From a virus: DNA of 64,000 nt. The stretch covers positions 1-64,000 of the IMG/VR virus record IMGVR_UViG_3300033146_003879; one strand, 5' to 3'. The position numbers and the translations under genes were made by a program. Below, one piece after another: positions 17,129-46,914 of the stretch; the first letter of the stretch is position 1, and the number at the start of each line of letters is the position of its first letter. The notes under the pieces were generated by a model, which saw only the letters and a program-made list of their open reading frames with translations, had not been told where the DNA came from and made no database searches.

Positions 17129-17156
17129 GATACTCCGCTAAATAGTTCATGCTGAT

Positions 17157-17185: not shown

Positions 17186-17205
17186 CAAAAAAACGGAGGT
17201 CTATT

Positions 17206-20915: not shown

Positions 20916-21290
20916 TTAGAGTTCTTCACTGTGCCTGATGTTGTTTGTTGCAATAGCATCATCCCTAACATCCGACACCAGCGATATGTGGTATGTGTAC
21001 ATACTAGACCTTGTGAGCGTGTTAAGGGTGCTGCTGTTTTCTATCCAATCAACACGTGTATCGCCACGCATGCCTTTCCGTACAACTAATGCGTGTTTAT
21101 TGTGAGCAATGTGTAGAACCTTGTCTGCCCATCCACGAAACCCGTCGCTCACGGCACCTAGTTTAGCTAGTGTGTTCTGTATATTCATGGATGCCTCTTC
21201 AGATACAGGGATAAGCACTTCATGATACCTCGGGTCCCAATCGGGGATATGTCTTACTAATTCTACAAACTCTTCTTCCGTAACTCTCAT
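20916..21290 (-). CDS. Array 1 small protein
   Basis: A 124-residue member. The core strand-helix is EVLIPVSEEASMNIQNTLAK followed by LGAVSDG, matching AVVVPNGERMSLRMQELLLK-MGAV of the gene at 21737-22111, its closest relative; both open with T-E-x-E-F and a short V-x-H/xHM helix. It ends HSEEL. Separated by 9 bp from the preceding gene. A beta-alpha unit flanked by strands, with no catalytic motif. Confidence 0.72.
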   Translation of the reverse strand: MRVTEEEFVELVRHIPDWDPRYHEVLIPVSEEASMNIQNTLAKLGAVSDGFRGWADKVLHIAHNKHALVVRKGMRGDTRVDWIENSSTLNTLTRSSMYTYHISLVSDVRDDAIATNNIRHSEEL

Positions 21291-21299
21291 AACACCCCC

Positions 21300-21725
21300 C
21301 TAGAGTTCACCGTTATTAACTACATTGTTATGCTTTAGTCCATACCCTCTCACTGTCAACACCGAGTCGTAATTAACGCGTAGCGATGTTATGGCACTAT
21401 CCTCAAAGGGTTCGATGCGCATTATGCTCCCATACACTGACACGTGAACAACTACTGCACCCGATTTACGATGCCTGCGCAGTGTCGCTGTTACCCCGCT
21501 TAACGCAGTAGTTCTGTCCTTCCTGCGTAGAGTATAAAATCGGGCTAGCCTGTTCGTAGCTTTTATAAAGGAGGGGTCTACAGGGTCACCTACTATGTTT
21601 GCGGCAATTGGTGTTGGGCCACCCTGACTTTCTTCCGCCGAGACTACCCGTCTCTTCCTATAAGCCTCGATCATCCTGTCCGCAGCCTCTTTATAAGTCA
21701 TTGTTCTCTTGGGGTAAGCTCTCAT
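21300..21725 (-). CDS. Array 1 small protein, subfamily with 20486-20905
   Basis: A 141-residue member with an N-terminal helix TYKEAADRMIEAYRKRRVV, core AANIVGDPVDPSFIKATNRL and a basic loop (TATLRRHRKSGAVVVHVSV). It ends NNGEL. GGAGGGTCTA precedes ATG 21725; 11 bp from the previous stop. Its alternation with the 20916-like type (long, short, long, short) suggests duplication of a two-gene unit at this end of the operon. Confidence 0.7.
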   Translation of the reverse strand: MRAYPKRTMTYKEAADRMIEAYRKRRVVSAEESQGGPTPIAANIVGDPVDPSFIKATNRLARFYTLRRKDRTTALSGVTATLRRHRKSGAVVVHVSVYGSIMRIEPFEDSAITSLRVNYDSVLTVRGYGLKHNNVVNNGEL

Positions 21726-21736
21726 TAGACCCTCCT

Positions 21737-22111
21737 TTAAATTGCCCCCTCGGGCGCCATGTTATCTCTTTCTGTTAGCCCTGTTATAGGGCTCTCACTG
21801 TACTCCCATCCGCTAACCTTATTGTTGAATATGGCCTTTGTTCCTAAGCTGCCTATTCGAAGAACCCGCGTCCTCCCGCCAAGGAATCCGCCTCGAGTCT
21901 CCCATCTAAAAACAATTGCATATTTATTCGCAACAGTATACGCATCATCCTCGCTACGATTACCTCTTCTTACAGCACCCATCTTCAGGAGTAACTCTTG
22001 CATTCGCAAGGACATCCTCTCTCCGTTCGGAACTACCACAGCCCAAGATCCATTCGGTGCCACCCATAACATGTGTACAAATCTTTTAAACTCTGTCTCT
22101 GTTACTATCAT
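21737..22111 (-). CDS. Array 1 small protein
   Basis: A 124-residue member: short N-terminal helix TETEFKRFVHML, core AVVVPNGERMSLRMQELLLK, then KMGAVRRGN, strand segments (KYAIVFRWETRGG) and the C-terminal ITGL element (SPITGLTE) aligning with GITG/MTDV of other members. It ends PEGAI, followed by TAAAGGAGG, so the Shine-Dalgarno of the next gene lies after the stop rather than inside the coding region. Confidence 0.72.
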   Translation of the reverse strand: MIVTETEFKRFVHMLWVAPNGSWAVVVPNGERMSLRMQELLLKMGAVRRGNRSEDDAYTVANKYAIVFRWETRGGFLGGRTRVLRIGSLGTKAIFNNKVSGWEYSESPITGLTERDNMAPEGAI

Positions 22112-22122
22112 AGAATCCTCCG

Positions 22123-22512
22123 TTAAAGCGCATCCTTGTGGCGAACATTCACTGTAAGGAGGCTGCTGCCCCCTACATCAGTTATCCGTGTTTCTATGTA
22201 CTCGCTGCGATCTCCTCCTTCAAGCACGCTTGAGGTTGCATACGTAATCACCAACGCCCCCGCCTTGTGCGGGAATGGCCTATAGGATAGAAGTAACACC
22301 GGAGCATTACTATTGAGTATGTACTTTGCTCCCGACCCCCACGTTATATCCTGTGCAAACAGGGCTCCTTGCAATCGCTGGCTTGCTGCTGCTGATCGCG
22401 GGCGTATTACTAGTCGAACTATTCTCGGAGGGCTTGCATTATACCCCTCCCTTAAGTACTGCAGGTTACTGTCCGTTATTGTTTTAAGCCGAATATGCGT
22501 TACCAGTGTCAT
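22123..22512 (-). CDS. Array 1 small protein
   Basis: A 129-residue member: core LVIRPRSAAASQRLQGALFA, the W of DITWGSG after it, strands PVLLLSYRP and ALVITYATS, then the C-terminal IETRITDVGG element. It ends HKDAL, then TAACGGAGG. The start overlaps the preceding stop by 4 nt (ATGA). A typical family member. Confidence 0.73.
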   Translation of the reverse strand: MTLVTHIRLKTITDSNLQYLREGYNASPPRIVRLVIRPRSAAASQRLQGALFAQDITWGSGAKYILNSNAPVLLLSYRPFPHKAGALVITYATSSVLEGGDRSEYIETRITDVGGSSLLTVNVRHKDAL

Positions 22513-22892
22513 AAGTCACCCCCTTTGGTAAGGTTATCTTCGCACGTTATTATTGCATCTACTATCCAAGACTCCTCGAGAGGCACTATTGCATACCTGT
22601 CCGCAATGGCAACTTCCTCCGATCGTGCCCTTACCAGGTATGGGCTTTTCGTTGGATCTGACGGAACCCCTAGTACGAGACATGTTCGTAGGCGTGTATC
22701 ATTAAGTCTAGTGTCATACCCCTTCTTCTCAAGGGTTATAGATTTTCTACGGAGAGCACGCAATATTCTATCGTCCGCCACCTTATCTCTCGGACGTATT
22801 ATCAAGATGCCTCCACTAGCGTTACCACTTGAGTTATCAATGAACCTTGATACTATAGCAAGCAAACCCTTGCTGGTAATTACTTTTGTCAT
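22509..22892 (-). CDS. Array 1 small protein, divergent
   Basis: A 127-residue member, more divergent: core ILIIRPRDKVADDRILRALR with a basic continuation (RKSITLEKKGYDTR) where others have a Trp. The C-terminal WIVDAIITCED corresponds to the V-DTGITG region. It ends KGGDL. It overlaps both neighbours by 4 nt. Higher Arg/Asp content than its siblings. Confidence 0.7.
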   Translation of the reverse strand: MTKVITSKGLLAIVSRFIDNSSGNASGGILIIRPRDKVADDRILRALRRKSITLEKKGYDTRLNDTRLRTCLVLGVPSDPTKSPYLVRARSEEVAIADRYAIVPLEESWIVDAIITCEDNLTKGGDL

Positions 22893-23317
22893 AGCTCTGC
22901 TCCTTGTGGCATGTTGTGGTTATTAGACCAAGGTAGTGCGTCTACTATACCAGATTCAACATAAGTGATACCGCTAGTCCCTTTATTCTCTGCTAGCCTA
23001 GCATCTAAATCGCGATCTGTGAAGTACAAGTTAGCGATGTCTATAACGACCGTTCGCTGAGACTTGGTCTCGTACTTATAGGGGCTTATTACTAAGTCCC
23101 GGTCTGTGAAGTTAACTGTTGCGCCTAGGCTACTCCAAACTATCCCTTCTGAGAACAGCATATCCTTCACCTTAGCAGACGCAGTCGCGCTTCTAGGTAG
23201 TATCACGATCCTGTGCTCTAGTCTTCCTTCTCCGGGATAACCTCTTGCTATCTCACGGAGCTCTCTAATTGTTTTTCGTAGGTAATTCAAGGCCTCGTAC
23301 CTCGTCTCTATCGTCAT
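22889..23317 (-). CDS. Array 1 small protein
   Basis: A 142-residue member, one of the longest: an N-terminal helix NYLRKTIRELREIARG, core IVILPRSATASAKVKDMLFS followed by GIVWSSLG, a duplicated TDRDL string (NFTDRDLVIS and YFTDRDLDAR), then ESGIVDALPW. It ends QGAEL. 4-nt overlaps on both sides. The PRSATAS and PRSAAAS cores mark it as nearest to 22123-22512. Confidence 0.73.
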   Translation of the reverse strand: MTIETRYEALNYLRKTIRELREIARGYPGEGRLEHRIVILPRSATASAKVKDMLFSEGIVWSSLGATVNFTDRDLVISPYKYETKSQRTVVIDIANLYFTDRDLDARLAENKGTSGITYVESGIVDALPWSNNHNMPQGAEL

Positions 23318-23682
23318 AGCTCACCTTCCCCTACAATATGACCACTCAGATCAGGAGTCACGTCGGTCATTCCTGTTCTGTAGTAGCTACTTACATCATC
23401 CATGTCACCCGTCCACCTACTTGCGTATAACAGGTTTGTAGTTGTTCGGGTAGGGTGAACTCTAAGTATTAAATAAGGGTGTCTTGTATTGCGTACCACA
23501 GGATCTCCATTTGAACCATTCCAGCACACGTTTATTGTGAATAACACTTCTTGTATCCGAGCGGAGGCTCGGGCGTCTGTTGGTGATAGTATAATAGCGT
23601 GCCTTTCGTTTATACGACCATCCCTCTTGGCCGCACGCTCATTACTAATCAATCCTACCAGTTTCGTCTTCGTCCATCTCAT
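23314..23682 (-). CDS. Array 1 small protein
   Basis: A 122-residue member: core AIILSPTDARASARIQEVLF, then INVCWNGSNG, strand HPYLILRVHP and the TGMTDVTPD element. It ends GEGEL; those codons carry the GAAGGTGAG Shine-Dalgarno of the next gene, and the stop overlaps its ATG. A canonical family member. Confidence 0.75.
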   Translation of the reverse strand: MRWTKTKLVGLISNERAAKRDGRINERHAIILSPTDARASARIQEVLFTINVCWNGSNGDPVVRNTRHPYLILRVHPTRTTTNLLYASRWTGDMDDVSSYYRTGMTDVTPDLSGHIVGEGEL

Positions 23683-24068
23683 AAGGTGCCTCCATTTTGC
23701 ACATTACACACACTTCTATCAATTAATATGTCAGTTATGTGTGTAGTTGAGTAATACTCACTGTAAGTCGCAAGTAGTGAGTTTGTTTGAGCGTATCTAA
23801 TAACAACCCGTGGAACCCTACGTGTTGGTGTCACGGTCGTCGATAACACTAGGAGTTCCGCGGCTACGTGTTGGACGGAGTGTCTGTCTTTTACGTCATT
23901 GCTCCAAGCTGCGCCCAATGTGAATAATGCTGTTTGCATCCGTTCGCAGGCGGCTTCGCAAGACGGTTCAAGCAATAACTTTTGGTCTTGAGGAGTCTCT
24001 CCTTTTACCTTTCTTCTCATGTGCTCCTCCAGAATATGAGATAGCTCAGAGACTGTTACCCTTGTCAT
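23679..24068 (-). CDS. Array 1 small protein
   Basis: A 129-residue member: N-terminal helix VSELSHILEEHMRRKVKG, core LLLEPSCEAACERMQTALFT, then LGAAWSND, a strand AELLVLSTTV and the HITDILI element. It ends NGGTL. Two Cys in the core helix region (SCEAACER) are not conserved in siblings. 4-nt overlap junctions on both sides. Confidence 0.74.
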   Translation of the reverse strand: MTRVTVSELSHILEEHMRRKVKGETPQDQKLLLEPSCEAACERMQTALFTLGAAWSNDVKDRHSVQHVAAELLVLSTTVTPTRRVPRVVIRYAQTNSLLATYSEYYSTTHITDILIDRSVCNVQNGGTL

Positions 24069-24433
24069 AGGACACCTCCATTCAGGTTATCTTCTTTATG
24101 AACTAGCGTGACTCCTGTAATTCCAGTAATTCCAGTAGCAATACATGCCTCTAATCCACGCAGAGTATCAGCGTAACCTAAACTACCTTCATTTAGTGAG
24201 GTTACTGCAATAACTAGGTGTGGTTTTTCTGTGTGCTTAACAAGGCTTTCCGGTTCGTTACCCGTGGTTTTGTTGGGACTGTCGGACTTCCAGAACACGC
24301 CGATTGAGAACAGTGCCTTTTGGATCTCACTCGAATCTATCTGTGTCTTAGGAGATAGTACTATGCCGATGTTATCTGCCTCGCCGCTTCTGTTAAATAG
24401 TAAAGAACGCAGCTTCCTCTTTGTTACTTTCAT
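24065..24433 (-). CDS. Array 1 small protein
   Basis: A 122-residue member: opening helix VTKRKLRSLLFNRSGE, core IVLSPKTQIDSSEIQKALFS, then IGVFWKSDSP, strand PHLVIAVTS, then an expanded ATGITGITGVTLV where the GITG element is doubled. It ends NGGVL. Overlaps both neighbours by 4 nt. Confidence 0.75.
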   Translation of the reverse strand: MKVTKRKLRSLLFNRSGEADNIGIVLSPKTQIDSSEIQKALFSIGVFWKSDSPNKTTGNEPESLVKHTEKPHLVIAVTSLNEGSLGYADTLRGLEACIATGITGITGVTLVHKEDNLNGGVL

Positions 24434-24801
24434 ATCTCCTCCTTCGGTATGTTGACAACAACTCTTTCTGGGTATGCTCCTGTAATGCCTGTGTCTAAGT
24501 GGTCGTCGTGTAGTCTATGTGTATCGTCGCAGTATCCGATCTGGTGAGGACCTTGTATTCTCACATATACAGTTAGATGGTTGCGGTTAGTGAACATAGG
24601 CTTCTTCCCTACTCTTTCCTGATAAACCCCTCCAGGCAACCACCCTACACCTAACGAAAATAACAACAACTGTATTCGCTCCGACTCTTTCTCAGAGCTA
24701 GGAGAGAACAACAATAGTCTGCCTGGCGGAACACCCTTGGTAGCTTTGTCTCTGTGTTCTTTGTCAAGCAATTCCGTAAGTTTATTAATAGATATTATCA
24801 T
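24430..24801 (-). CDS. Array 1 small protein
   Basis: A 123-residue member: ISINKLTELLDKEHRDKATKG, then the core LLLFSPSSEKESERIQLLLF, LGVGWLPGG, strand HLTVYVRIQGP and DTGITGAYPE. It ends PKEEI, with those codons providing the next Shine-Dalgarno. One of the two most regular family sequences, useful as a search seed. Confidence 0.75.
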   Translation of the reverse strand: MIISINKLTELLDKEHRDKATKGVPPGRLLLFSPSSEKESERIQLLLFSLGVGWLPGGVYQERVGKKPMFTNRNHLTVYVRIQGPHQIGYCDDTHRLHDDHLDTGITGAYPERVVVNIPKEEI

Positions 24802-25181
24802 AACTCTTCCCCATCTAATATATTGATACTTGGGATATGTCCAATAATTCCCGTTACCCCCGTGTCAACAATGGTGTCGTCAAGCGCCGGTTCCGCAGCT
24901 ACTTCCTCGGGGGCCTTTTTAGAGTGGTAGAGTGTTGGTGTTGCCGACTCTCCGCCTGTACTAAAGTCTCTACCTACTAGTAAACTAGGGGAGCTTGTAT
25001 GTGATATTTTACTACCCTCCGGACCAGTCCACTCTATGCCTAGGTCAAACAGTGCTTCTTGCAACTGGGATGATGCTTTTTTTGTGGACGTATGAAAAAG
25101 GAGGAGTCTCCTTCCTCTTAAAACACGGTTACTCTTTTCACCTAAAATGATATTCCTTAGGCAACTTCTCGATATTAACAT
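24798..25181 (-). CDS. Array 1 small protein, first gene of operon
   Basis: A 127-residue member and first gene of the operon. Start MLISRSCLRN at 25181 behind GGTGGAGAAGC; a longer upstream frame has no Shine-Dalgarno. Core LLLFHTSTKKASSQLQEALF, LGIEWTGPEG, a Pro/Glu-rich insert (KKAPEEVAAEPALDD) unique to this member, and VDTGVTGIIG. It ends DGEEL. The TGGTATAAG promoter at 25243 is ~55 nt (start site to ATG) upstream. No family name can be given; it looks like a small alpha/beta protein. Confidence 0.74.
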   Translation of the reverse strand: MLISRSCLRNIILGEKSNRVLRGRRLLLFHTSTKKASSQLQEALFDLGIEWTGPEGSKISHTSSPSLLVGRDFSTGGESATPTLYHSKKAPEEVAAEPALDDTIVDTGVTGIIGHIPSINILDGEEL

Positions 25182-25242
25182 TATGCTTCTCCACCACGCA
25201 CATTTAGAATATACAGAGAGCATCAATAAGATACTCTATGTT

Positions 25243-35403: not shown

Positions 35404-36111
35404 TTAGTGTGTGGAACAAGCCTTCTTTGTGTTTTGTTTAAATATAAAAGAATCGAGCCTTGTTTCTGCAGTCTCAAGACGAATCTGAGATTGTTTTATA
35501 CCGAACTCTTTCGCGGTTCGTATAGGGCTACCTTCATCAGTTCCCATGCCTTCTTTCACAAACAAGAGGATACTTTCCTGTAATGTCAGAGAACCTGACC
35601 TGCGCAGGCGCTCGATAAATGCGGGGTAATCCGTTTGTACAAGGTGTCCGTCTCGCGTGTTGTGCATAGCATCACCTAAGTGCATTCCTGATTTTGCTAA
35701 CATTGTTCGCATAACAGCGTCTTCGCCAGGATCAGCTTCCTCATCAGTGGCGAGTTCGGAAAAGGTACTCGCCTCAACACTCTTTATTGTTACTTGATTA
35801 CGGTATGCCCCAAGGACGGCCATCTGAATGCCCCCTGTTGCATACGTTATGAACTGTACTTCGTCAGATATATCGGTGTTATACTTTAGCAACGCATCGT
35901 AGAAACCTTTCCACGCGGCGCCGATAAGCTCATCCTTATCAGTAACGTCTTTTCGTAATTTGTAATAGTACTTGGCTTGCTTGAGTACAACTCCCTTGTA
36001 GTCTACAATAAGTTTCCGCATCGCTGCGTCTTTTTCATGCTGTAGGCTATGGGGATCTTGTATTATCTTAATTACTGCAACGGTATCTTCACGGGACAAC
36101 GAACGTTTCAT
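35404..36111 (-). CDS. Phage RNA polymerase sigma factor
   Basis: A 235-residue sigma-70-family protein; start MKRSLSREDT at 36111 with a CAGGAG Shine-Dalgarno (a longer frame lacks one). Region 2: KDELIGAAWKGFYDALLKYN followed by VQFITYATGGIQMAVLGAYR (~75-125), the region 2.1-2.4 pattern with FxTYA and an aromatic/basic helix. Region 4: LTLQESILLFVKEG, then SPIRTAKEFGIKQSQIRLET (~185-225), a helix-turn-helix. Region 1.1 and a full region 3 are missing, making it short like alternative sigmas. It probably directs the phage or host polymerase to phage promoters. It is divergent from the terminase operon. Confidence 0.88.
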   Translation of the reverse strand: MKRSLSREDTVAVIKIIQDPHSLQHEKDAAMRKLIVDYKGVVLKQAKYYYKLRKDVTDKDELIGAAWKGFYDALLKYNTDISDEVQFITYATGGIQMAVLGAYRNQVTIKSVEASTFSELATDEEADPGEDAVMRTMLAKSGMHLGDAMHNTRDGHLVQTDYPAFIERLRRSGSLTLQESILLFVKEGMGTDEGSPIRTAKEFGIKQSQIRLETAETRLDSFIFKQNTKKACSTH

Positions 36112-36148
36112 AGGCGCTCCTGAGTACCAACTGTTACTGACGTTTAAG

Positions 36149-36176
36149 AGTATACGTGACAGTATTTGAAAATCAA
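36149..36176 (-). promoter_or_regulatory. Leftward promoter of sigma gene
   Basis: TTGATT (36171-36176), 16 nt, TATACT (36149-36154) on the minus strand, about 38 nt before ATG 36111. It is interlocked with the rightward promoter at 36156-36183: each -35 falls in the other's spacer. Confidence 0.6.
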
Positions 36177-36183
36177 CTATAAT
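36156..36183 (+). promoter_or_regulatory. Rightward promoter of terminase operon
   Basis: GTGACA (36156-36161), 16 nt, TATAAT (36178-36183, preceded by C), about 22 nt (start site to ATG) before 36212. It matches the CTATAAT class but with a good -35. Confidence 0.62.
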
Positions 36184-36211
36184 AATGGAGTATTTATTTA
36201 TGGAGGATAGT

Positions 36212-37081
36212 ATGTCACTACTCAAGTACGCACAAAAGGCTACGGGCCAGGATGAAGCAACTGTAATGAAAAAGTATGCCTCGGATGAGCTTTATAAGAA
36301 AGCAGTTGATCTTGCTACTACAGAAGCCGTTATTAGAGAGCTTAAGAAATACGAGAAAAAAGAAATGACCAAGGAAGCTGCCGGTATTCCTAAGATACCT
36401 AGTCTCTTAGCTATGCTTAAGAACCTTCCTGTAGGGATTGCTGATGATGTTGTGCGCGGTGCTGTTGGCGCTAGAGATGCGGCTGTACGTAATGCGAACG
36501 CTGTAAAGAATGCAATCGTTCACAACGCAGATGAATTTGGTAGAGGTATGAAGTTTGGTAGGGCTCCGTTATCAGAGCGAGATGCGGCCTACAGAGCTAT
36601 GGAGCAACCGCTACGGGAAGCTATACATAGTTTAGACACGAAGGGTATGGAAAGCGCACTTAGGAGTACTGGTCGTACCACGCGAGGAACACAAAGCACT
36701 TTAAGCTCAGCACAAGAATTACTTGATGTTCTTGCTGGTTACAATAGACAAGGCCCTTTGTCTAAAGCAAACCTTGCCGGTAGGATTACATCCGGTCTTG
36801 GTCTCGGAGGCGCCGGTTTAGGTGCAGGTGCGTACCTCACCAAGGACAGTACCTTTGATGATATATTCTCCGGTTTAGGAGCTATACCTTCTGACGCAGG
36901 CCACATGAACCCCGCAGCTATTGCAGGCCTCGGTGGAGCTCTTGCGGGTGGTATCGGAGGTGCGGCCTATAACGGCGCTGTGGGTGAAGATCAACTTCTC
37001 AGACGTGTTATCCAAGGTGCCTTAGCTGGCGGTGGAGCAGGTGTTGCTGGCGGAGCTTTGTACGGCGATCCACTAACATAA
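36212..37081 (+). CDS. Glycine-zipper protein upstream of terminase
   Basis: A 289-residue protein starting MSLLKYAQK at 36212 behind GGAGGATAGT. N-terminal ~60 residues are charged helices (VIRELKKYEKKEMTKEA). The C-terminal third is glycine-zipper repeats (GLGLGGAGLGAGAYL, AGLGGALAGGIGGAAYNGAV, GALAGGGAGVAGGAL), typical of proteins that pack or insert into membranes. It ends 13 bp before the terminase start. Not a recognisable small terminase. Possibly a virion protein delivered into the cell envelope. Confidence 0.7.
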   Translation: MSLLKYAQKATGQDEATVMKKYASDELYKKAVDLATTEAVIRELKKYEKKEMTKEAAGIPKIPSLLAMLKNLPVGIADDVVRGAVGARDAAVRNANAVKNAIVHNADEFGRGMKFGRAPLSERDAAYRAMEQPLREAIHSLDTKGMESALRSTGRTTRGTQSTLSSAQELLDVLAGYNRQGPLSKANLAGRITSGLGLGGAGLGAGAYLTKDSTFDDIFSGLGAIPSDAGHMNPAAIAGLGGALAGGIGGAAYNGAVGEDQLLRRVIQGALAGGGAGVAGGALYGDPLT

Positions 37082-37094: not shown

Positions 37095-38786
37095 ATGGCA
37101 ATAAAGAAACTTAACATCGCTAGCTCTGTGTTGGCGGCGTCACTACTTACCCTTGATAGTGGGGGTCACCCTGACTATAAGGGGTATCCTATGTTTGCGA
37201 ATCTCCTTGATATGCCTTACGTATCAGATCTTACAATACTAGCATCAAGGCAGGTCGGAAAATCAATATATGTTGCAACACGTGCGGTAATACGGAGTGT
37301 AACTCCTGATCATAAGTACGTCTATATCGCCCCGTCAGAAAGGCAGGCCACCGACTTCTCGAGGCTAAAGCTAGGTATCATATTAGAGAAGTCTAAGTTT
37401 GCTCGGAAGCTTCTCATGCATAGAGATAGTCCTCTCCTTCCTCCTGGAGAAAAAGCAGCGCTTAACTCAATAACCAATGATGTATACATGAAGAAGTTTG
37501 CTAACTCTTCGTACATAAAGATTGGGTATGCAGCTGATGCTAAAGGAGTTGAGCGTGTTCGTGGAGGTACCGCAGACGAGCTTACTATTGATGAGGCTCA
37601 GAGTACCGACCTCGATGCCCTCATGCCTGTACTTAAGCCGATGCTTACTCAAGCGAAGCGTCCGATAATGAATACATACGGAACTCCATTGAACGAGAAT
37701 GATTCACTCGTTATTCGTTTTAAATCATCAACACAACATACGGCAGTTGTTAAGTGTGAAGGCTGCAATAGATGGACAACACTAGATAACTTTAGGATCA
37801 TCGGCCTCAATGGTCTTATTTGCCCACGCTGTGGAAAACCCATTGATGCTCGTAACGCAAAGTTTGTTCCGATGAATCCGGGATCAGCTCACCTAGGCGT
37901 GCATATCAACCGTCTCATGCTTCCTAGTACAACATCTACAGAGATAAAGTGGCAACAACTTATTAATGATATCGAGGATCCGAACACTACCGAAGACGGT
38001 GCTATGCGAGAGATATTCGGTAGACCTGCGGGTAGTTCTTCTGAGATGATTGATGAGAGGGATATAGAAAAAATAGCAGTTCTTCCAGCTATATACGTAG
38101 ATAAGACCTTTGAGCAGGTCATCACGATCGCAAATGCTGAACGGATACGCCTCGGTAAGTCTCCCTATAAGTTTATGCACGCAATAGATTGGGGTGGAGG
38201 GGCACTGAGTATAGCCGGCGGTGGGCTAGAGACAGAAAGCCGAACCGCAGAAGTTCTTATTGGTATGCATTACGATAAGGGGTATCTCGGTTTCGATATA
38301 CTGTATCATAATCTATACCCTATGGCACACCCGAGGCACGCTCTCGACTCACTCCTCAATAATATGGGTTACCTACCAGTAAAATCTATCGTCACCTGTG
38401 ATGCTCTTGGTGGAACATTCGCTATATCAGACATACGATCTACACTAAATAAGATGGCAAAGGGACATAAGTTTCTTCCTATACAACTAGGTAGTATTGC
38501 TGCCGATAAGACACATAATGATTTACAAGATAGGATTGTGGTATCAAAGAGTAACGTGGTTACAAAATTCTTCATTGCTCTTCTACATGAGAAAATACGC
38601 ATGCAGAAAGATCCGCATGTTATAAGAGAGCTTACTCGGCAGTTTCTAGCGGAGACTGAGATTGAGAATCATAACGGAAAGCGAATCTGGTTAAAAAAAT
38701 CAGGAATCAACGATGATATCCTTATGGCCTCCATATTTGGTTTTGTTGCAGGGGCTTTCTTTCACGAGCAGGCACTACTTAAGTAA
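37095..38786 (+). CDS. terL: Terminase large subunit
   Basis: A 563-residue packaging motor and headful nuclease. The ATPase has Walker A ASRQVGKS (~49-56) and Walker B LTIDEAQ (~162-168) followed by TYGTP (motif III region). A zinc finger is inserted at ~220-250 (CEGCNRW, then CPRCGKP), as in lambda gpA-type terminases. RNase-H nuclease acidic residues are in HAIDWGGG (~364), VTCDALGG (~435) and GINDDILMAS (~538). Complete, with no intein or frameshift. Its partner small subunit is not identifiable next door. It acts at the portal of the prohead. Confidence 0.93.
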   Translation: MAIKKLNIASSVLAASLLTLDSGGHPDYKGYPMFANLLDMPYVSDLTILASRQVGKSIYVATRAVIRSVTPDHKYVYIAPSERQATDFSRLKLGIILEKSKFARKLLMHRDSPLLPPGEKAALNSITNDVYMKKFANSSYIKIGYAADAKGVERVRGGTADELTIDEAQSTDLDALMPVLKPMLTQAKRPIMNTYGTPLNENDSLVIRFKSSTQHTAVVKCEGCNRWTTLDNFRIIGLNGLICPRCGKPIDARNAKFVPMNPGSAHLGVHINRLMLPSTTSTEIKWQQLINDIEDPNTTEDGAMREIFGRPAGSSSEMIDERDIEKIAVLPAIYVDKTFEQVITIANAERIRLGKSPYKFMHAIDWGGGALSIAGGGLETESRTAEVLIGMHYDKGYLGFDILYHNLYPMAHPRHALDSLLNNMGYLPVKSIVTCDALGGTFAISDIRSTLNKMAKGHKFLPIQLGSIAADKTHNDLQDRIVVSKSNVVTKFFIALLHEKIRMQKDPHVIRELTRQFLAETEIENHNGKRIWLKKSGINDDILMASIFGFVAGAFFHEQALLK

Positions 38787-38811: not shown

Positions 38812-39363
38812 TTAAGTTCTGCTATTCTGGTATCCGGACACGATACTTGTTGTTCTTGTAGATGCATTCATTCTGATGTGAGCAACTATACTGTCAGTAT
38901 ATTTTGTGTGGAGCTCCGGTTTCGCTTTCATGATACGAGTCGCTGTTATGGCAATGTCATCATCACGAAGGGATCTCCAATCATGTGTAATAAGATTGTT
39001 GATTGATTGCGCAGACCAACGCGTCGCAATCTCTTTCCTAATAAATGCAGCATCGCTTGGCGGCGCTGTTGTGAGCCACTGGGAGACGACTTCAGTTGGG
39101 GATACCTTGTAAAAGAAATGCATGGCTTCTAGCGGGATCAATTCTCCGAGAGGCATCTTTACCGACATAGCAAGTTCTAAGAACTCGCTTATATGCCCTT
39201 CTTGTTCCTCTGTCCTCTCGATTGCTGCTGAAGCCACAATAGCATTGCCTATAATCACGCTTCGCTTGTCCACCTCAGGGACTAACTGGTCAGGTAGTTG
39301 GCGCGGGCTGCGATACGTACCGTCTTCAACGCCTTTCATAATTACTCTTCCTACTGTTCGCAT
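38812..39363 (-). CDS. Hypothetical protein
   Basis: A 183-residue helical protein, convergent with the terminase (25-bp gap). It starts MRTVGRVIMKG behind TAGGAGAG. Segments: SVIIGNAIVASAAIERTEEQ, GELIPLEAMHFFYKVSPTEV, RDDDIAITATRIMKAKPELH. The all-helical form and the WLTTAPPSDAAFIRKEIATR stretch are unremarkable. No motif. It shares a short leftward operon with 39387-39605. Confidence 0.68.
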   Translation of the reverse strand: MRTVGRVIMKGVEDGTYRSPRQLPDQLVPEVDKRSVIIGNAIVASAAIERTEEQEGHISEFLELAMSVKMPLGELIPLEAMHFFYKVSPTEVVSQWLTTAPPSDAAFIRKEIATRWSAQSINNLITHDWRSLRDDDIAITATRIMKAKPELHTKYTDSIVAHIRMNASTRTTSIVSGYQNSRT

Positions 39364-39386
39364 AGTAACTCTCCTATATCTCGTTG

Positions 39387-39605
39387 TTAGTGTTTATGTT
39401 CTTTGTTAACTTCGTCTTCTGACATACCTCTATATAGTGCAGTATTAAGATCTGCTATTCTTGTTGTTGTGCGCGCGTTGTATTCGTTGTGTGCTATCAC
39501 CGCTCTCAGAAATACCTCCGCACTTGCTACGTTGGTTGGGTAGTACCAAAGGATATCTCCGTGTGTGGAAACCTCTCGAAGAACGTGCATCACCTTACTG
39601 TACAC
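39387..39605 (-). CDS. Small hypothetical protein (GTG start)
   Basis: A 72-residue protein. GTG 39605 has a weak GGGG 8-9 nt upstream; an internal ATG at 39590 has AAGGTG placed too close, so the GTG is preferred but uncertain. Content: VLREVSTHGDILWYYPTN, then AEVFLRAVIAHNEYNARTTT and an acidic-His tail (DEVNKEHKH). Unknown family. Transcribed from the TGGTATAAG box at 39649. Confidence 0.55.
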   Translation of the reverse strand: MYSKVMHVLREVSTHGDILWYYPTNVASAEVFLRAVIAHNEYNARTTTRIADLNTALYRGMSEDEVNKEHKH

Positions 39606-39648
39606 CGCTATGCCCCTAACAATCCTCTCTAAATGATTTATCCAAGTT

Positions 39649-39657
39649 CTTATACCA
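39649..39657 (-). promoter_or_regulatory. TGGTATAAG-type promoter
   Basis: The minus strand reads CAAATGTGGTATAAGAAC, about 37 nt (start site to start codon) before the start at 39605. It lies 11 bp from the rightward CTATAAT box of the lysis-RNAP operon, so the two cannot be occupied together. Confidence 0.5.
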
Positions 39658-39667
39658 CATTTGATAA

Positions 39668-39676
39668 TGCTATAAT
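39668..39676 (+). promoter_or_regulatory. Extended -10 / CTATAAT promoter of lysis-RNAP operon
   Basis: TGCTATAAT, a perfect extended -10, about 29 nt (start site to ATG) before 39712. It is the only promoter seen before the 39.7-46.9 kb rightward operon (spanins, holin, RNA polymerase). Confidence 0.6.
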
Positions 39677-39711: not shown

Positions 39712-40212
39712 ATGTTATCTTGGGCGACTATCATGAGCTTCGTTATGAAGCACAAGACCGCCATAGCAATTTCACTAGTACTTGTAGTAACTCTCATAGC
39801 ATTTGGTGTTGTGCGGCTGCAACTAAGGCATTGCCGGTCTAAATACGATAAACTCAAAAAGCAGTTTGACGCAACGCTCGTTGCGCAAGAAACGTGTGAA
39901 AAGTCTGTAGCAGCTATTAACGGAGCTGTTCTTACTGCGAAAAAAGATTGCGCGCGAGAGAAGGCGTCTCTAAAGGCAGCGTATGAGTTTGGCAAGGAAG
40001 AGAGAGATAAATATCATAGCAAGGTGGACAAGCTTTTCGCCGACAAAAAGAAAGGGGACAAAGCCAATGGTGCTGTTACACCTGTGACAGAAGTAACTCC
40101 GGATGGCGGCATCTTTGATTATCAGGCAGAGGTGACAGACTTTTATAACGAAGTGAATGAGAAGTGGAATGCATTCGCTGATAAGTATGAGGGGGGACGA
40201 GATGAGGAATAA
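39712..40212 (+). CDS. Inner-membrane spanin (i-spanin)-like protein
   Basis: A 166-residue protein; start MLSWATIM at 39712 behind GGAGGCGACA. It has one N-terminal membrane anchor (~14-36, IAISLVLVVTLIAFGVV), then a long charged coiled coil (SKYDKLKKQFDATLVAQETC to about residue 110) and an acidic tail (DKYEGGRDEE): N-in, periplasmic coiled coil, as in Rz. Its end overlaps the lipoprotein gene by 11 bp in another frame, the classic Rz/Rz1 geometry. With the lipoprotein it would span the periplasm and disrupt the outer membrane at lysis. Confidence 0.78.
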   Translation: MLSWATIMSFVMKHKTAIAISLVLVVTLIAFGVVRLQLRHCRSKYDKLKKQFDATLVAQETCEKSVAAINGAVLTAKKDCAREKASLKAAYEFGKEERDKYHSKVDKLFADKKKGDKANGAVTPVTEVTPDGGIFDYQAEVTDFYNEVNEKWNAFADKYEGGRDEE

Positions 40213-40540
40213 ATTGTTGCTGGTACTCACTCTTATCGCGATGATGTTCGCGACATCCTGCGTTGAGGTACGGTACATAACAAAAGTACAGAAAGTGTAC
40301 AGGACTCCAGCGAAACTGGCAATACCAACGCTGCCTCGCCTCTCCTTGTACGAAGACGGCGATAGTGTGTTTACGAAAGAGAACTACAAGAAATTATTGA
40401 AAGAGTACAGCGACTCGCTTGTGTTCACGAAGCAATTGTTAATGCTTATAAAGGAACATAACAAGCTTATCGCTGAGATAGAAGCAGAAGAAAAGGCTGC
40501 GGCAATAACAGAGAAAGAGGAGACTAAAGATGCACATTAA
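40202..40540 (+). CDS. Outer-membrane spanin lipoprotein (o-spanin)-like
   Basis: A 112-residue protein starting MRNKLLLVLTLIAMMFATSC at 40202. It has a signal peptide of type II with lipobox ATSC and the lipidated Cys at residue 20. The mature part is VEVRYITKVQKVYRTPAK followed by a charged helix (KENYKKLLKEYSDSLVF, then EIEAEEKAAA). Longer than lambda Rz1 but of the same design. Its presence indicates a Gram-negative host. The final codons overlap the holin start by 11 bp. Confidence 0.78.
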   Translation: MRNKLLLVLTLIAMMFATSCVEVRYITKVQKVYRTPAKLAIPTLPRLSLYEDGDSVFTKENYKKLLKEYSDSLVFTKQLLMLIKEHNKLIAEIEAEEKAAAITEKEETKDAH

Positions 40541-40790
40541 AGACTTGGTTAGAGAACATGACAAGGACCGCCTATCAAAAGGCGCTATTATGATGTGGAT
40601 AACATTCGCCGTAGCAATAGCTTACTGGCTGACTGGTATTATTACGCAGCATTCTATGCCGATACCTGAAGGATTGCTGAGCTTCTTGCTTGCTCTTCTC
40701 GGCTACAACGTTGCACGTAGAGGAACCGACGGGGCCTCTGCACTGCTTGCAAAAATTAAGAAGCAGTCTATAGACGCAATGCCCAAATAA
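40530..40790 (+). CDS. Holin-like membrane protein
   Basis: An 86-residue protein with two membrane segments, MMWITFAVAIAYWLTGII (~21-38) and LLSFLLALLGYNVA (~49-62), a charged N-terminus (HDKDRLSKG) and a basic C-terminal tail (KIKKQSIDAMPK). Size, topology and position directly after the spanins fit a class II holin. GAGGAG precedes ATG 40530. No endolysin is adjacent. It controls lysis timing by forming inner-membrane holes. Confidence 0.7.
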   Translation: MHIKDLVREHDKDRLSKGAIMMWITFAVAIAYWLTGIITQHSMPIPEGLLSFLLALLGYNVARRGTDGASALLAKIKKQSIDAMPK

Positions 40791-40815: not shown

Positions 40816-43800
40816 GTGTCACAAAAGTTATATTCAATTGGATACGGTTCTACGCAAGATCAGATAGAGGATTCTATGAGCAAAGGGTTCCGCAATGTCG
40901 AGTTTAACGACATGTACGACGGGTCTACTTATAAAATGGACAACATTTCATTTAAGCGTAAAGCTGATGCTAACTCTCCTGAGGTGTTCAAGGAAGCCTT
41001 ACTTGGTAATAGAAGTCTCCTTGCTCAAGTTCATGGTGATATATATCGGTATGATAAAGATGGTAAGAAGGATAGGGTTGCGGCTAACGTGCATATTGCT
41101 AGTGTTCCTCAGATGCTTGACTCTCGTGGTACGTTTGTTGTGCGGGGTAGTGATTATAATATCATTAACCAGCTTCGTAAGAACTCTGCACCATACATCA
41201 CACGTGGTAAAACCGATACCGACATTAAGGCTACATTTAACCTTGCAAAGGGTCGTAACTTCCATATAGAAATGAATCCAGCAGATTCTATGTTCTATGT
41301 AAAGATAGGTACATCGAGTGTGGTTATAAAGGCGCTCGCTGAAGTATTGGATATCACTAGATATGATATGGTTAAGGCTATTGGCGAGGATATGGTGAAG
41401 CTTAATTGGGACAATGTATCTCCGTCGCTCGTGCGGTCTAACCTTGTGAAACTATATAAGAAGGTGTTTGAGTATAAACACGATAACCCTTCTAATTTTA
41501 CAGACCATGAATTGAAGACACTCTTGTCAGAGTACTTCAAGACAACGGTTATGGATCCGCATACTACGAAGCTTTTATATAAGCAGGAGATGTCAAGCGT
41601 TGATAAGGCAGCACTACTCAAGATACTGTCCGAGTACATGAAGATCTATAAGAAAGAAAAAGCTCCGCATAACCAAGATGAGTTATATTATCAGAGAGTT
41701 ATGACACCAAATCTGTTGTTTGAAGATCGTATCCATAAGACGGCCCCTACAATAAACAACACAATAAAGTTCAATCTTGCAAGAGCAAAGTCCGCTGATG
41801 ATTACAAGAAAGTATTTAGTAATATATACAGCAAGCCTCTTATATCGATGGTAGCAGGGTCTGATCTCGCACGCATTGATCCGCAGTATAACCCTCTCGG
41901 CGTAATGGTGACTCCGTCATCTATAACCCCTCTCGGTATGGGCGGCGTCAATGATTCTATGGCTATACGTGACTCACAACGAGACATACATGTTTCGTCT
42001 ATGGGAGTTATAGATCCACTCGTATCACCACAAGGTGGTAATGTTGGTATCTTGCTTCGTACTACTGACAACTTCAAGGTTGATGAGAAGGGTCGTGTTC
42101 ATCTCAAAGTTCGTGATAAGAAAGGGAAGGTAGGCCACACATCACTGGCCTCTCTTAAAGACAAGTATCTTGCACTACCTGATGTTCGACCAGGAACAAA
42201 AAAGAGAACGGTGTCTGCTGTACACGACGGGGAGATCGTGAATGTGTCTAAGGATAAGATAACACATTACTTCCCAAATGGCCCGGAAGATACACTTAAC
42301 TCACTCGACAGATTGTTTCCTATGGCGAACGCTGTACAAGGTAACAGGAACTTTATGAGTACGAGACAGATAACGCAAAGTCTCCCTTTGGCATACAAAG
42401 AGCTCCCGTACATACAAACGGAATCGTCTACTGGTAAGAATATGTATGAGAAAGTACGTGAGGATCTCGAGTCTCTTATGCCGTTACGATCTCCCGTTGA
42501 CGGAGTCGTTGAAAGTGTTAAGGATGGTGTAATAACTATAAAAGACGATGACGGAAAGAAGCACGAAGTGAAGTATGCTCGACATCTTCCTCTCGCAACG
42601 AATACCGGTATTCACCAAATACCAACTGTTCATCGTGAAGAGCGTGTCAAGAAACGTCAGATTATACTTAAAGATAACTACACGGTCGATGGTAAAATCG
42701 CATTTGGAGTGAACCTAAAGACGGCGTTCATGCCGTATAAGGGGTATAACGCAGAGGATGCTGTTGTAATATCAGAGACAGCGTCAAAGAAATTGATGTC
42801 TGTACATTACTACAAGTATGACATACTTACTGGTGATGAGAACATTATTGGTAAGAAGTCTTTCCTTAATAAATTCCCCGATAAGTTTCAGCCTGCACAA
42901 GTAGCAAACATAGAAGCTAACGGCATAATAACTAAAAATACACGTATAAATTATGGTGATCCGCTGGTGCTTGCCCTGGCTAAGGTTCTACCTGATGAGT
43001 CCCTGATGAAGATTGGAAGAATAAGTAAGGATATTGTAGTTACACTTGCGGACTCGTCTCTTGTGTACGACCATCACGCAATCGGTGAGGTTGTTGAGAT
43101 ATCTGAACGATCGAAGGTGCTTACGGTAACAGTAAAAACCCTTGAGAGGGCGGTTGTTGGTGATAAGGTTGCTGGTATGTACGGAAATAAGGGGGTTGTA
43201 TCTGTAGTTATCCCTGATGATAAAATGATGCGTAATGAGGAAGGGGATGTTGTTGACGTTATTTACGCAGCATCCGCCGTACCTAGTCGTATGAATCCTG
43301 CGCAAATACATGAACAGGCACTATCGAAGATCGTAAAGAAGAAAGGATTGAAGCCGTATATGTTTCAGCCTCTAACGAACCCTGGCGGTAAGCCGCTTGA
43401 TGAGTTTGTCGAAAAAGAGATGAAGAAACACGGTGTTAGTGATAAAGAGTTCCTTATTGATCCTATAACCGGGAAGAAGACAGACAGGCCTGTTGCGTCC
43501 GGTCAGATGTACACACTCAAATTGCTTAAGGGTGATAAAGATGCTGCAGCGCGTGGCCTCGGTCCTGCATACACATCAAACAAGCAGCCGGCTAAGGGCG
43601 GCTCGGAGGGAGCGAAAGCTATTGGGCAAGCAGAGTTCTACGCACTTGTTGCACATAATGCAAGAGCTACTATGGCAGACTTCAGTTCAATAAAAGGACA
43701 GCACAATGCAGATTACTGGCGTAAGTCTTTGTACGGTGCCCCACCAACTCCTGTTGGAGAATCATTTGCGTTTAAGCGATTCAAAGCAAACCTTACATCG

Positions 43801-46800
43801 GCGGGTTCAGTATTTAACGAAACAAAGGATGGGTATCAACTACTTCCTTTGACAGATAAAGTAACGAATCAACTTGCCGGGCATCGTAAAGTGAAGACTC
43901 CTGCGTTGTTGCGCAGTAAGACCCTTGAGCCTATTAAGAATGGGTTGTATGATAGGGCAATCACTGGTGGTGTTGACGGTACACTATGGTCTAAGATAGA
44001 ACTAGAAGATGGCATGGTGTCACCAATGATAGAGGACTATGTTCGTATCTTACTCGGTATGAAGAAAGCTGATATCAGAAAGTGGCAAGCGGAGCACACT
44101 ACTGCAGAAATGCGAAAGGAGCTTAACAAGATTGACGTATCTTCCAGGATACGCGAACTAAAGGCAAAGGGTAAGAATTCTGGTAAATTAACAAACACCG
44201 AGATAAAGTTGCTGCGTTTCTTACAGAACATAAAAGACAAGGGTACTAACCTTGCTGATCTTATAATAACATCGCTTCCTGTTCCTCCTCCTATCTATAG
44301 ACCGATGACGCAGCTCGGAGATGGTAGCATCCAGATGGCAGACTCTAACCACTTCTATAAGGATATCCTTATTGCTAATGAGGGACTGAAAGATGTTAAG
44401 GGGCTTAAGTCGGTATCAGGTGAGGTTAAAGACGAACTCATCTACAATGTCCATGCTCTCGTAGGAACGGAGAAAACAAAAAATAGAACACTCGCCAATA
44501 AAGGAACAAAAAGCATACTTGAAGCTATCGGCGGTGTTGGTTCTCCGAAGTACGGTTTTGTTCACGCTAATCTTGTTAAAAAGAATCAGGATTTGGCGGG
44601 GCGTGCACGTATTATCCCTAATGCAGATCTCGATATGGATGAAGTTGGTATACCTACGTCTATGGCGTGGGAGCTGTATAGCCCCTTCATAAAGAAGAGT
44701 CTTGTTAGTTCTGGTATGACGCCTATAGATGCAGCTAAAGCAATAACACACAAGTCTACTCCTGCGAAGCGTGCTCTTGTTTCCGAAGTTGATAAGAGAC
44801 CAGTGCTCATAAATAGAGCGCCGACGTTACATAGGTTTGGTATACTTTCGATGAAGCCTCGGCTTGTATCTGGAAATAGTATGCAGGTGTCTATGTTCCA
44901 CACCGCTCCGTTTAATGCTGATTTCGATGGAGATGCGATGCAGGTCCATGTACCGGTAACGCAAGCTGCTATTAGAGAAGCAGACAAGATGCGCATGTCG
45001 CAGAATCTGTTAGGTGACGTGTCTGCAGATCAGCTTATTATGGCATTAACACCAGAGACTATTATTGGATTCTATGATAAGGCGAGGTATGACCGGTCAA
45101 CTGTCGTACGTGATCTTAAGAAGATACTCCCGGCCAATGTTAGTCTTCCTGCTACGTATGACAAGAAGGGGTTAAAACAGTTATCGTTGGGTATTGCGAA
45201 GTCAGGTGCTGCTGATATAGCAGGGATATTCCAGCGCGTGAAAGTGCTCGGCGATGAGTACGCAACACAATCTGGTCGTACTGTTGGTGTTGAAGATGTT
45301 TCTGGTGCAGGCATGAGGAAAGAGAAGGACGCGATACTTGGTAAGTATAAGAAGAAGCTAAGTAGGGTAAAGATGGGGACACCTGAGTATGCGGTTGAAC
45401 TTGAGTCCGCGCAGAAGGAAGTGCAGAGCCTTGCAAAGAAACACCCGGGAGATGTTGGTGAGATGCTACGTGCCGGAGCTAAGGGGAGTGACAACCAGAT
45501 ATCAGGTATGATACTCTCGCCGGTGATTGCGTATAACCCGCACGACCCGATACGCACAGCGCGGATGACTGAGAGCTCATATAGTGAAGGCCTTAACTTT
45601 AACGATTTCTGGAACCAGGTGGCAAAGGCTCGTACGGACATGGTGTCTACTGCTATGAGTGTTGCTGTTCCTGGATCTCTTGCTAAGCTCATGAATGCAG
45701 CGGTTAACAAGATGGTTATATCAGAGTTCGATTGTGAGACAATGGACGGAGTGTTTGTTGACCCATCTACTGACGACGTCCGCGGGTCACTGCTTGCTGA
45801 GAAAGTAGGTATATTTAATAGAAATACTATTATCAATACACTCAACGAAGCTGCTATTAGTAAAAATAAGAAGATAAAGATACGTTCTCCTCAAACATGC
45901 CAGTCTACTGAAGGTGTGTGTGCTCGATGTTACGGCGCTGATGCTATGGGTGTGTTGTATAAGGTAGGAGTAAATGTAGGCGTCCGCGTTGCTCAAGGTG
46001 TGTCTGAGCCTATTGCTCAGATGGCACTTGATAGTAAACACGGAGGAAGATCTATTACGAAAGATATTGGGCAGGGAGGCCTCACGACAATTACCAACAT
46101 ATTTAGTTCTGATGCTACAAAACCTGGTATGGCTATCGTTGCGAAAGAGGATGGTACTGTTAAATCAACATCCGTGCTACCTTCTGGTGCGACAATTATA
46201 AAGATGGTAGACGGAGCATCTTACACGGCGGCTCCAGATGTCACGGTGAAGGTGCATGAAGGGTCGTCTGTAGCTCGAGGTGACTCTATCACCAGCGGAG
46301 TAATCCCATTCACTGATGTTATTGAAGCTAAGGGTATTGTTGCAGGTAGAGCAGCGCTTGCCGGACAGCTTCGGGAGTCGCTTGATGAGAACGGTAGGCA
46401 CTTGTCTACAAGAGTACATGATCTCATCGGTAAAGCGGCGGCAAACTACGTAACACTTATGGCTGACCTCGATAGTCACCCTGCTGGGACAACTATAACA
46501 TATAGTCAACTGAAGCAATCCCTCAAGGATCACAGTTATCCGAAAAAATTAGCGCTTGTTACTGAAGGTATGCAATTAGGTGAGGAATTCGGTGACCTCT
46601 CTGCGGGAACAATTATCACGAAGAAAGAAGCGCGTAAGATCGCAGCTGCTAAAACGATACCAGAAACCGATAAGAAGTTTATCCGTATCGTTGAGAATAA
46701 AGTCCCGTTTGAGTGGGTAGCTCGTACTCTCTATACTGCAGGACTTGCTGATGATGACTGGATGCATCACATCGCAGCCCGATACATTAAAAAAGAACTC

Positions 46801-46914
46801 ACCTCGGCAACAGCAGAAGGTGATGTTTCTAAAAAGAAAACACTGAGTCCGGTAAATGTGTGGATGCAAGGCAAGGCTATGAAGAACGATCCCGATACAC
46901 CTTACTACGAATAA
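40816..46914 (+). CDS. Fused beta-beta' multisubunit-type RNA polymerase
   Basis: A 2032-residue single chain carrying both large RNAP subunits. The GTG start (40816) follows AAGGAGAG. Beta part: GTFVVRGSDYNIINQL, RDIHVSSMGVIDPLVSPQGG (~389), GYNAEDAVVISE, GDKVAGMYGNKGVVS (~782), SAVPSRMNPAQIHE. Beta' part: YRPMTQLGDG, AGRARII, RPVLINRAPTLHRFGIL, catalytic NADFDGD at 1367-1373 (Mg-binding Asp 1369, 1371, 1373), zinc site 2 with Cys ~1640, 1695, 1702, 1705, and VAQGVSEPIAQMAL (trigger-loop region). The N-terminal beta' zinc site is absent. Far shorter than E. coli beta plus beta' (2749). No alpha or omega was found. Cotranscribed with lysis genes, hence perhaps late and virion-packaged. Confidence 0.95.
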   Translation: MSQKLYSIGYGSTQDQIEDSMSKGFRNVEFNDMYDGSTYKMDNISFKRKADANSPEVFKEALLGNRSLLAQVHGDIYRYDKDGKKDRVAANVHIASVPQMLDSRGTFVVRGSDYNIINQLRKNSAPYITRGKTDTDIKATFNLAKGRNFHIEMNPADSMFYVKIGTSSVVIKALAEVLDITRYDMVKAIGEDMVKLNWDNVSPSLVRSNLVKLYKKVFEYKHDNPSNFTDHELKTLLSEYFKTTVMDPHTTKLLYKQEMSSVDKAALLKILSEYMKIYKKEKAPHNQDELYYQRVMTPNLLFEDRIHKTAPTINNTIKFNLARAKSADDYKKVFSNIYSKPLISMVAGSDLARIDPQYNPLGVMVTPSSITPLGMGGVNDSMAIRDSQRDIHVSSMGVIDPLVSPQGGNVGILLRTTDNFKVDEKGRVHLKVRDKKGKVGHTSLASLKDKYLALPDVRPGTKKRTVSAVHDGEIVNVSKDKITHYFPNGPEDTLNSLDRLFPMANAVQGNRNFMSTRQITQSLPLAYKELPYIQTESSTGKNMYEKVREDLESLMPLRSPVDGVVESVKDGVITIKDDDGKKHEVKYARHLPLATNTGIHQIPTVHREERVKKRQIILKDNYTVDGKIAFGVNLKTAFMPYKGYNAEDAVVISETASKKLMSVHYYKYDILTGDENIIGKKSFLNKFPDKFQPAQVANIEANGIITKNTRINYGDPLVLALAKVLPDESLMKIGRISKDIVVTLADSSLVYDHHAIGEVVEISERSKVLTVTVKTLERAVVGDKVAGMYGNKGVVSVVIPDDKMMRNEEGDVVDVIYAASAVPSRMNPAQIHEQALSKIVKKKGLKPYMFQPLTNPGGKPLDEFVEKEMKKHGVSDKEFLIDPITGKKTDRPVASGQMYTLKLLKGDKDAAARGLGPAYTSNKQPAKGGSEGAKAIGQAEFYALVAHNARATMADFSSIKGQHNADYWRKSLYGAPPTPVGESFAFKRFKANLTSAGSVFNETKDGYQLLPLTDKVTNQLAGHRKVKTPALLRSKTLEPIKNGLYDRAITGGVDGTLWSKIELEDGMVSPMIEDYVRILLGMKKADIRKWQAEHTTAEMRKELNKIDVSSRIRELKAKGKNSGKLTNTEIKLLRFLQNIKDKGTNLADLIITSLPVPPPIYRPMTQLGDGSIQMADSNHFYKDILIANEGLKDVKGLKSVSGEVKDELIYNVHALVGTEKTKNRTLANKGTKSILEAIGGVGSPKYGFVHANLVKKNQDLAGRARIIPNADLDMDEVGIPTSMAWELYSPFIKKSLVSSGMTPIDAAKAITHKSTPAKRALVSEVDKRPVLINRAPTLHRFGILSMKPRLVSGNSMQVSMFHTAPFNADFDGDAMQVHVPVTQAAIREADKMRMSQNLLGDVSADQLIMALTPETIIGFYDKARYDRSTVVRDLKKILPANVSLPATYDKKGLKQLSLGIAKSGAADIAGIFQRVKVLGDEYATQSGRTVGVEDVSGAGMRKEKDAILGKYKKKLSRVKMGTPEYAVELESAQKEVQSLAKKHPGDVGEMLRAGAKGSDNQISGMILSPVIAYNPHDPIRTARMTESSYSEGLNFNDFWNQVAKARTDMVSTAMSVAVPGSLAKLMNAAVNKMVISEFDCETMDGVFVDPSTDDVRGSLLAEKVGIFNRNTIINTLNEAAISKNKKIKIRSPQTCQSTEGVCARCYGADAMGVLYKVGVNVGVRVAQGVSEPIAQMALDSKHGGRSITKDIGQGGLTTITNIFSSDATKPGMAIVAKEDGTVKSTSVLPSGATIIKMVDGASYTAAPDVTVKVHEGSSVARGDSITSGVIPFTDVIEAKGIVAGRAALAGQLRESLDENGRHLSTRVHDLIGKAAANYVTLMADLDSHPAGTTITYSQLKQSLKDHSYPKKLALVTEGMQLGEEFGDLSAGTIITKKEARKIAAAKTIPETDKKFIRIVENKVPFEWVARTLYTAGLADDDWMHHIAARYIKKELTSATAEGDVSKKKTLSPVNVWMQGKAMKNDPDTPYYE

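Follow-up and report, generated by a model that had tools for sequence, protein, structure and literature searches.

How does a phage come to encode, within one open reading frame (ORF), what looks like the entire catalytic core of a bacterial RNA polymerase, and at which stage of infection would such an enzyme work? The question is posed by the first 64 kb (hereafter the window) of the 182,989-base virus record IMGVR_UViG_3300033146_003879 from IMG/VR; coordinates beyond the window are given as record positions. The ORF in question (40816-46914, plus strand) starts with a GTG preceded by the ribosome-binding site aaggag, runs for 2032 codons with no internal stop and occurs just once within the 183 kb of the record. 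The explanation that we consider probable is that its product is a virion RNA polymerase that does without alpha, depends on a sigma factor and initiates early transcription.

The predicted protein consists of a full-length beta part (residues ~1-1010, 40816-43845) followed directly by a full-length beta' part (residues ~1011-2032, 43846-46911), the C-terminal sequence of beta passing into the N-terminal sequence of beta' with zero insertion relative to Escherichia coli, i.e. with no added linker. The E. coli inserts SI1 and SI2 are absent from the former part, and SI3 and the N-terminal zinc domain from the latter. Pfam detects Rpb2_6 at residues 561-929 (5e-48) and Rpb1_2 (2e-25), Rpb1_5 and Rpb1_1 at 1136-1948, and the NCBIfam hidden Markov models of the bacterial subunits match as well (rpoC 2.7e-93, rpoB 2.8e-61). 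Both subunits are recognizable nearly end to end. The ORF, both sets of profiles and the alignment to E. coli thus agree with the initial annotation, which had described a single 2032-codon frame with beta motifs followed by beta' motifs. The fusion is genuine, as independent homologues of the same length exclude an assembly artefact.

All core catalytic residues are retained in the alignment to E. coli. The beta residues R678, E813, D814, K1065, K1073 and R1106 correspond to R511, E647, D648, K784, K792 and R825 of the phage chain; the NADFDGD catalytic Mg loop (residues 1367-1373, 44914-44934, plus strand) aligns with beta' 458-464, its D, F, D, G and D being invariant across 34 family members; and the trigger-loop histidine H1742 (46039-46041), equivalent to H936, is nearly invariant in the family. 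Zinc site 2 is likewise preserved (C1640, C1695, C1702 and C1705, within 45733-45930, matching C814, C888, C895 and C898), and the beta' N-terminal zinc site is missing, as had been noticed at the outset: the cysteines C70, C72, C85 and C88 fall inside a deletion of E. coli residues 65-96. Other replacements concern beta H1237 (K905 in the phage chain), beta' R346 (N1257) and the trigger-loop pair M932/R933 (L/D). Most rifampicin-contact residues are also replaced, with P, T, S and T standing for D516, H526, R529 and S531, and the enzyme is therefore predicted to be resistant to rifampicin. The two halves were modelled separately with AlphaFold from alignments of 36 and 34 family members, and each is predicted to fold like its bacterial counterpart. 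The beta half (predicted local distance difference test, pLDDT, 84.9; predicted template modelling score, pTM, 0.80) matches bacterial RpoB in a Foldseek search of the PDB with E 7e-68 and a template modelling (TM) score of 0.77-0.78, whereas the corresponding values for the beta' half against RpoC are pLDDT 80.0, pTM 0.71, E 3e-53 and TM 0.81 (both TM scores normalized to query length). With both double-psi barrels and their catalytic residues, the bridge helix and the trigger loop all in place, the chain has the hallmarks of a cellular-type RNA polymerase, and it is probable from sequence and models that the gene product is a complete, catalytically competent core in one polypeptide.

The initial annotation had regarded a fused, bacterial-like polymerase as unusual for a phage. 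The fusion is real, yet far from being peculiar to this phage it is the norm across a large phage clade. The window protein alone, used as query against viral sequences, gave zero matches because its peptide seeds were too specific; we then scanned IMG/VR with an alignment of the window sequence and those of two isolates, Salmonella phage Arash and Vibrio phage D69, and with a codon pattern for NADFDGD, and all counts that follow are lower bounds. The single-chain form occurs in at least 56 rows, or at least 49 after removal of near-copies, including the window and a distant sequence, L123; IMG/VR thus holds at least 47 distinct versions other than that of the window. A split form, which joins beta to the N-terminal half of beta' (beta'N) and has a separate gene for the C-terminal half (beta'C), accounts for at least 34 rows (at least 29 after near-copy removal, comprising Arash, D69 and at least 27 others). 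A third, more distant phage type has separate genes for a short beta' (~900 amino acids) and beta (~1000 amino acids). The fused phage polymerase family is widespread in metagenomes and has cultured relatives; we found no cultured phage carrying the single-chain form.

An indication of where the enzyme would act comes from Arash. This phage is the closest kind with a virion proteome and shares with the window genome homologous terminase (37095-38786), portal (record 108352-110187) and capsid (record 101398-102579) proteins. Virion mass spectrometry of Arash detected Gp206, the fused beta-beta'N homologue, with 3516 spectra and 100% coverage, more than any other protein, together with Gp216 (beta'C, 1210 spectra) and the sigma factor Gp10 (467 spectra) (PMC10585845). 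Divided by their lengths (1525, 606 and 234 amino acids), these counts, crude as spectral counts are, come to 2.3, 2.0 and 2.0 spectra per residue, as against 1.5 for the portal, 4.3 for the capsid and 2.4 for the helicase Gp217, which adjoins Gp216 and has a weakly matching homologue at record 84532-86037. Near-equal length-normalized values are what a packaged core-sigma complex would give, and they support, without proving, its existence. The possibility of packaging into the virion, raised in the initial annotation, thereby gains strong support from outside, and the window phage would be expected by analogy to package its own polymerase. Gene order is of interest in this respect, too: among the matches listed, 32 of the 49 single-chain loci have a portal gene upstream of the polymerase, and 21 have a terminase gene downstream.

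The assignment of the putative partner sigma factor needs correction. The initial annotation had pointed to a gene at 35404-36111, but the homologue of the sigma packaged by Arash is instead located at record 126167-127321, outside the window. The gene within the window (35404-36225, minus strand, start uncertain) is likely a sigma, a weak assignment based on a match to a PHROG sigma family (4.8e-9); in Pfam and in NCBIfam (sigma70-ECF, 2.2e-5) it stays under the curated cut-offs, and it may be regarded as a sigma-70 family-like, non-virion candidate. Neither alpha (PF01193) nor omega (PF01192) is recognizable in the 183 kb record, the controls being positive in 13 of 14 and 14 of 14 genomes, respectively.

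As for timing, a search for k-mers enriched between the genes of the whole record revealed two classes of promoter-like motif, neither of which has a conserved -35 element. Class A has the form TNTGGTATAAGAA..TG, with GGTATAAG found in 14 intergenic stretches versus 0.4 expected, and about half of its sites are located between 140 and 183 kb of the record; class B, CTATAAT, occurs in 16 stretches versus 1.6 expected. A class B element (39670-39676, plus strand) heads the transcription unit that starts at 39691 and ends with the polymerase, and a divergent class A promoter, TGTGGTATAAGA (39648-39659, minus strand), faces the minus-strand genes at 38812-39605; such back-to-back pairs on opposite strands occur sometimes in the record. 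Class A may be early and class B later. The promoter of the polymerase unit had been described as late-type, and its class is indeed the one that precedes the units of the portal, the capsid and the virion-sigma homologue; the class cannot be called strictly late, since it is also the one in front of the DNA polymerase and primase units. Arash and D69, where 30 and 20 upstream regions were inspected, yielded neither motif.

Put together, these data are best explained by a scheme in which the covalent beta/beta' joint replaces the alpha/omega assembly scaffold, and the polymerase would be synthesized alongside late and replication genes, packaged with the phage sigma (the homologue at record 126167-127321) and delivered with the DNA into the host. 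There the enzyme and its sigma would recognize phage promoters with a -10 element only, so that transcription might start before the host polymerase is needed. The action early in infection, the class of promoters read by the packaged enzyme and the substitution of alpha by the fusion are parts of the scheme that we infer.

Several observations weigh against this scheme. Carry-over of proteins into the virion preparation was named as an alternative by the authors of the Arash study (PMC10585845), and it is possible because 116 proteins were detected in that preparation. Arash itself has the two-gene form, with ~29% identity to the window protein over the common part. The window polymerase adjoins the terminase and not the portal gene. 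The homologue of the packaged sigma is a partial-length match (26% over 114 amino acids) with no Pfam sigma match of its own. Conservation in the window chain does not extend to the residues by which the beta' coiled coil contacts sigma (E. coli R275, R278 and E295), and sigma would therefore need another binding mode. Finally, there is the class B promoter that the polymerase has in common with replication units. It is thus conceivable, but in our view unlikely, that the polymerase has no virion role, being made during infection for late transcription only, and that the virion signal reflects carry-over of an abundant protein. Such a reading has to contend with the fact that the Arash homologue is the most-detected virion protein, accompanied by beta'C and sigma at near-equal levels per length, and that most single-chain relatives are portal-adjacent. 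Furthermore, no second polymerase of this type was found that could serve the early phase: the 183 kb record, possibly incomplete, has only one PF00623 gene. A sigma-dependent virion enzyme therefore continues to be our preferred explanation.

The relationship between the single-chain and the split forms deserves separate attention. Arash and the Vibrio phages D69, D181 and D148 share with the window a homologous beta that continues into beta'N, but their beta' is interrupted downstream of the catalytic barrel and beta'C resides on its own gene. Arash gp206 was annotated as beta only and gp216 as beta' (PMC10585845); the gp206 sequence already includes the beta' catalytic barrel. In the window chain the position of the split corresponds to a short linker (residues ~1420-1447, 45073-45156, plus strand), the linker at this site measuring 63 amino acids versus ~102 in most relatives. 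This short linker, together with quick trees that put the window amid split-form members, could suggest that the single chain is a secondary re-fusion within the split group. We consider this rather improbable: a tree grouping the split forms without the window is better by 7.5 log units (p-value of the approximately unbiased test, p-AU, 0.64), a short linker is also found in about ten other single-chain members, and the window branch is very long. One fission, with the single chain retained in the window, is the simplest history, favoured because the tree that keeps the split forms together and the window outside scores better.

An intron or homing element was considered as the origin of the split and rejected, since in the members examined the gap holds ordinary-looking small genes and no evident endonucleases. 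The split site also proved to be near, not identical to, that of cyanobacteria, as the phage beta'C begins ~25 residues upstream (judged by eye against the start of the rpoC2 model). In Vibrio phage D181 (L307, 2821-10803), an annotated homing endonuclease interrupts the beta part and leaves the enzyme in three pieces; among the members examined, D181 is the only phage with an annotated endonuclease within beta. Three loci have extra-long beta'C genes of 1019-1369 amino acids, compared to the usual 600-650 (L065, 15637-19263; L083, 18450-22559; L038, 15233-18292). In another record (L087, IMGVR_UViG_3300037465_000468, ORF 9935-18955), the single-chain polymerase reaches 3006 amino acids owing to an intein-like insert of ~500 residues in the active site, where it follows NADFDGDAM immediately; this insert bears a LAGLIDADG-like motif (LAGLIDTDG), and its carboxy end looks non-canonical.

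Given that relatives have a separate beta'C gene, split at the linker after the catalytic barrel, one might also imagine the window chain being cleaved after translation, the working enzyme then consisting of two or more pieces. This appears quite improbable to us, because no hallmark of an intein was noticed in the window chain (no search for protease sites was made) and the chain of other members is whole despite variable linkers.

The phylogenetic position of the fused chains was assessed with quick trees, for which the root was not inferred. Single and split forms together constitute one fully supported clade, to which neither the bacteria nor the separate-gene phages belong. A tree of beta' alone, in which 30 bacteria of many phyla were included, placed the phage chains outside bacteria with 99% support in the Shimodaira-Hasegawa-like approximate likelihood ratio test (SH-aLRT). 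A Cobetia phage row representing a wrong gene was left out of the final beta' tree, the placement having been the same before its removal. The exact placement of the window is unsure, owing to its very long branch and an identity of at most 33% to any relative. Acquisition by the phage of a bacterial fusion of the Helicobacter/Wolbachia kind is very hard to credit and is contradicted by the trees. The two bacterial beta/beta' fusion models that are the best and third-best NCBIfam matches of the window chain owe their high scores to containing both halves. The Helicobacter fusion nests in Campylobacterota, the phage chains make up a clade of their own outside the sampled bacteria, and the phage chain is ~870 amino acids shorter. 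The cellular RpoBC proteins of Helicobacter and Wolbachia (~2900 amino acids) do have the same order, beta then beta', but the Helicobacter fusion (2901 amino acids in Helicobacter anseris, from the same scan) is, judging by the tree, independent of the phage one. A 2328-residue fused chain encoded on a 160 kb viral contig (L123, IMGVR_UViG_3300031722_000008, 1907-8893, minus strand) branches outside the main fused clade and represents a possible deep or independent fusion. Several phage-labelled records (OR846602, OR849902, CAKLQF020000005, AFYI01000006 and others) contain an ordinary bacterial rpoB-rpoC pair and are apparently host chromosome.

Among described systems, the mReC phages of Weinheimer and Aylward (2020) resemble the window in having cellular-like beta and beta' with NADxDGD, a clade apart from bacteria and a PF03237 terminase, but they were treated as having two subunits, beta and beta', and "fused" or "fusion" is said there only of crAssphage (PMC7481178). 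Their detected capsids are PF07068, a family that two of the eight separate-gene records searched contain, whereas the window genome and all 16 fused-type records searched lack it. Because PF07068 was met only in separate-gene records among those searched, part of mReC may belong to the separate-gene type, but the terminase family and barrel motif of mReC fit the fused type as well. The separate-gene type is represented by L106, L113, L117, L158, L169, L179, L180, L185, L189 and L210, with a PF07068 (Gp23) capsid in two, and a possible isolate of this type is Cobetia phage Carin-5 (L306). The polymerases of phiKZ and AR9 (PMC7598289) also lack alpha and omega and are split near the post-barrel site used by some relatives of the window; they differ in comprising four to five polypeptides with no recognizable sigma, as opposed to one chain with sigma-like genes present, and their virion enzyme is one of two polymerases, whereas one enzyme was found in the window record. 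Both barrels also reside in one phage polypeptide in crAss-like phi14:2 gp66, YonO and P23-45 gp96/gp64, gp96 being a virion enzyme (PMC10770324). These enzymes are highly divergent, that of crAss having no detectable similarity to COG0085/0086 (PMC7481178), whereas the window chain matches the cellular beta and beta' profiles. Our literature search found no description of full-length beta-beta' phage chains; a dendrogram in PMC10770324 mentions cellular-clade fused-barrel derivatives, and earlier notice of such chains elsewhere cannot be excluded.

The genes preceding the polymerase in its unit had been taken for lysis genes, an identity that now depends on topology and weak profile matches. 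They encode a membrane-anchored coiled-coil protein that is i-spanin-like in its topology and matches a PHROG of unknown function (39712-40212; 1.2e-6), a small o-spanin-like lipoprotein with the lipobox ATSC and a weak match to an Rz-like spanin PHROG (40202-40540; E=0.005), and a small membrane protein that is a holin candidate (40530-40790; holin PHROG, weak, E=0.019), all on the plus strand. The large terminase subunit, a homologue of Arash gp1 (37095-38786, plus strand), is identified by PF03237 (4e-6, above the cut-off), a PHROG terminase family (1.9e-25) and phmmer against Arash (1.2e-24). Elsewhere in the window, some 12 consecutive minus-strand genes of near-equal size (122-142 amino acids; 20916-25226) might be a tandem family.

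We give roughly even weight to the wider proposal that a large clade outside the sampled bacteria packages a sigma-dependent core of one polypeptide (~225 kDa) without alpha or omega, ejected as a near-stoichiometric core-sigma complex, and thus a natural minimal single-subunit enzyme of the cellular type. The large family of single-chain phage polymerases has so far been barely described, and its placement outside bacteria in the trees bears on the origins of phage polymerases. If our explanation is true, the phage enzyme would be a natural, complete cellular-type core in one chain, dispensing with the alpha scaffold that is present in all cells, and would offer a simple system to probe the roles of alpha and omega. 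It would also bear on how a polymerase this large is ejected and refolded, and on sigma-guided promoter choice by virion enzymes, those of the phiKZ type having no recognizable sigma.

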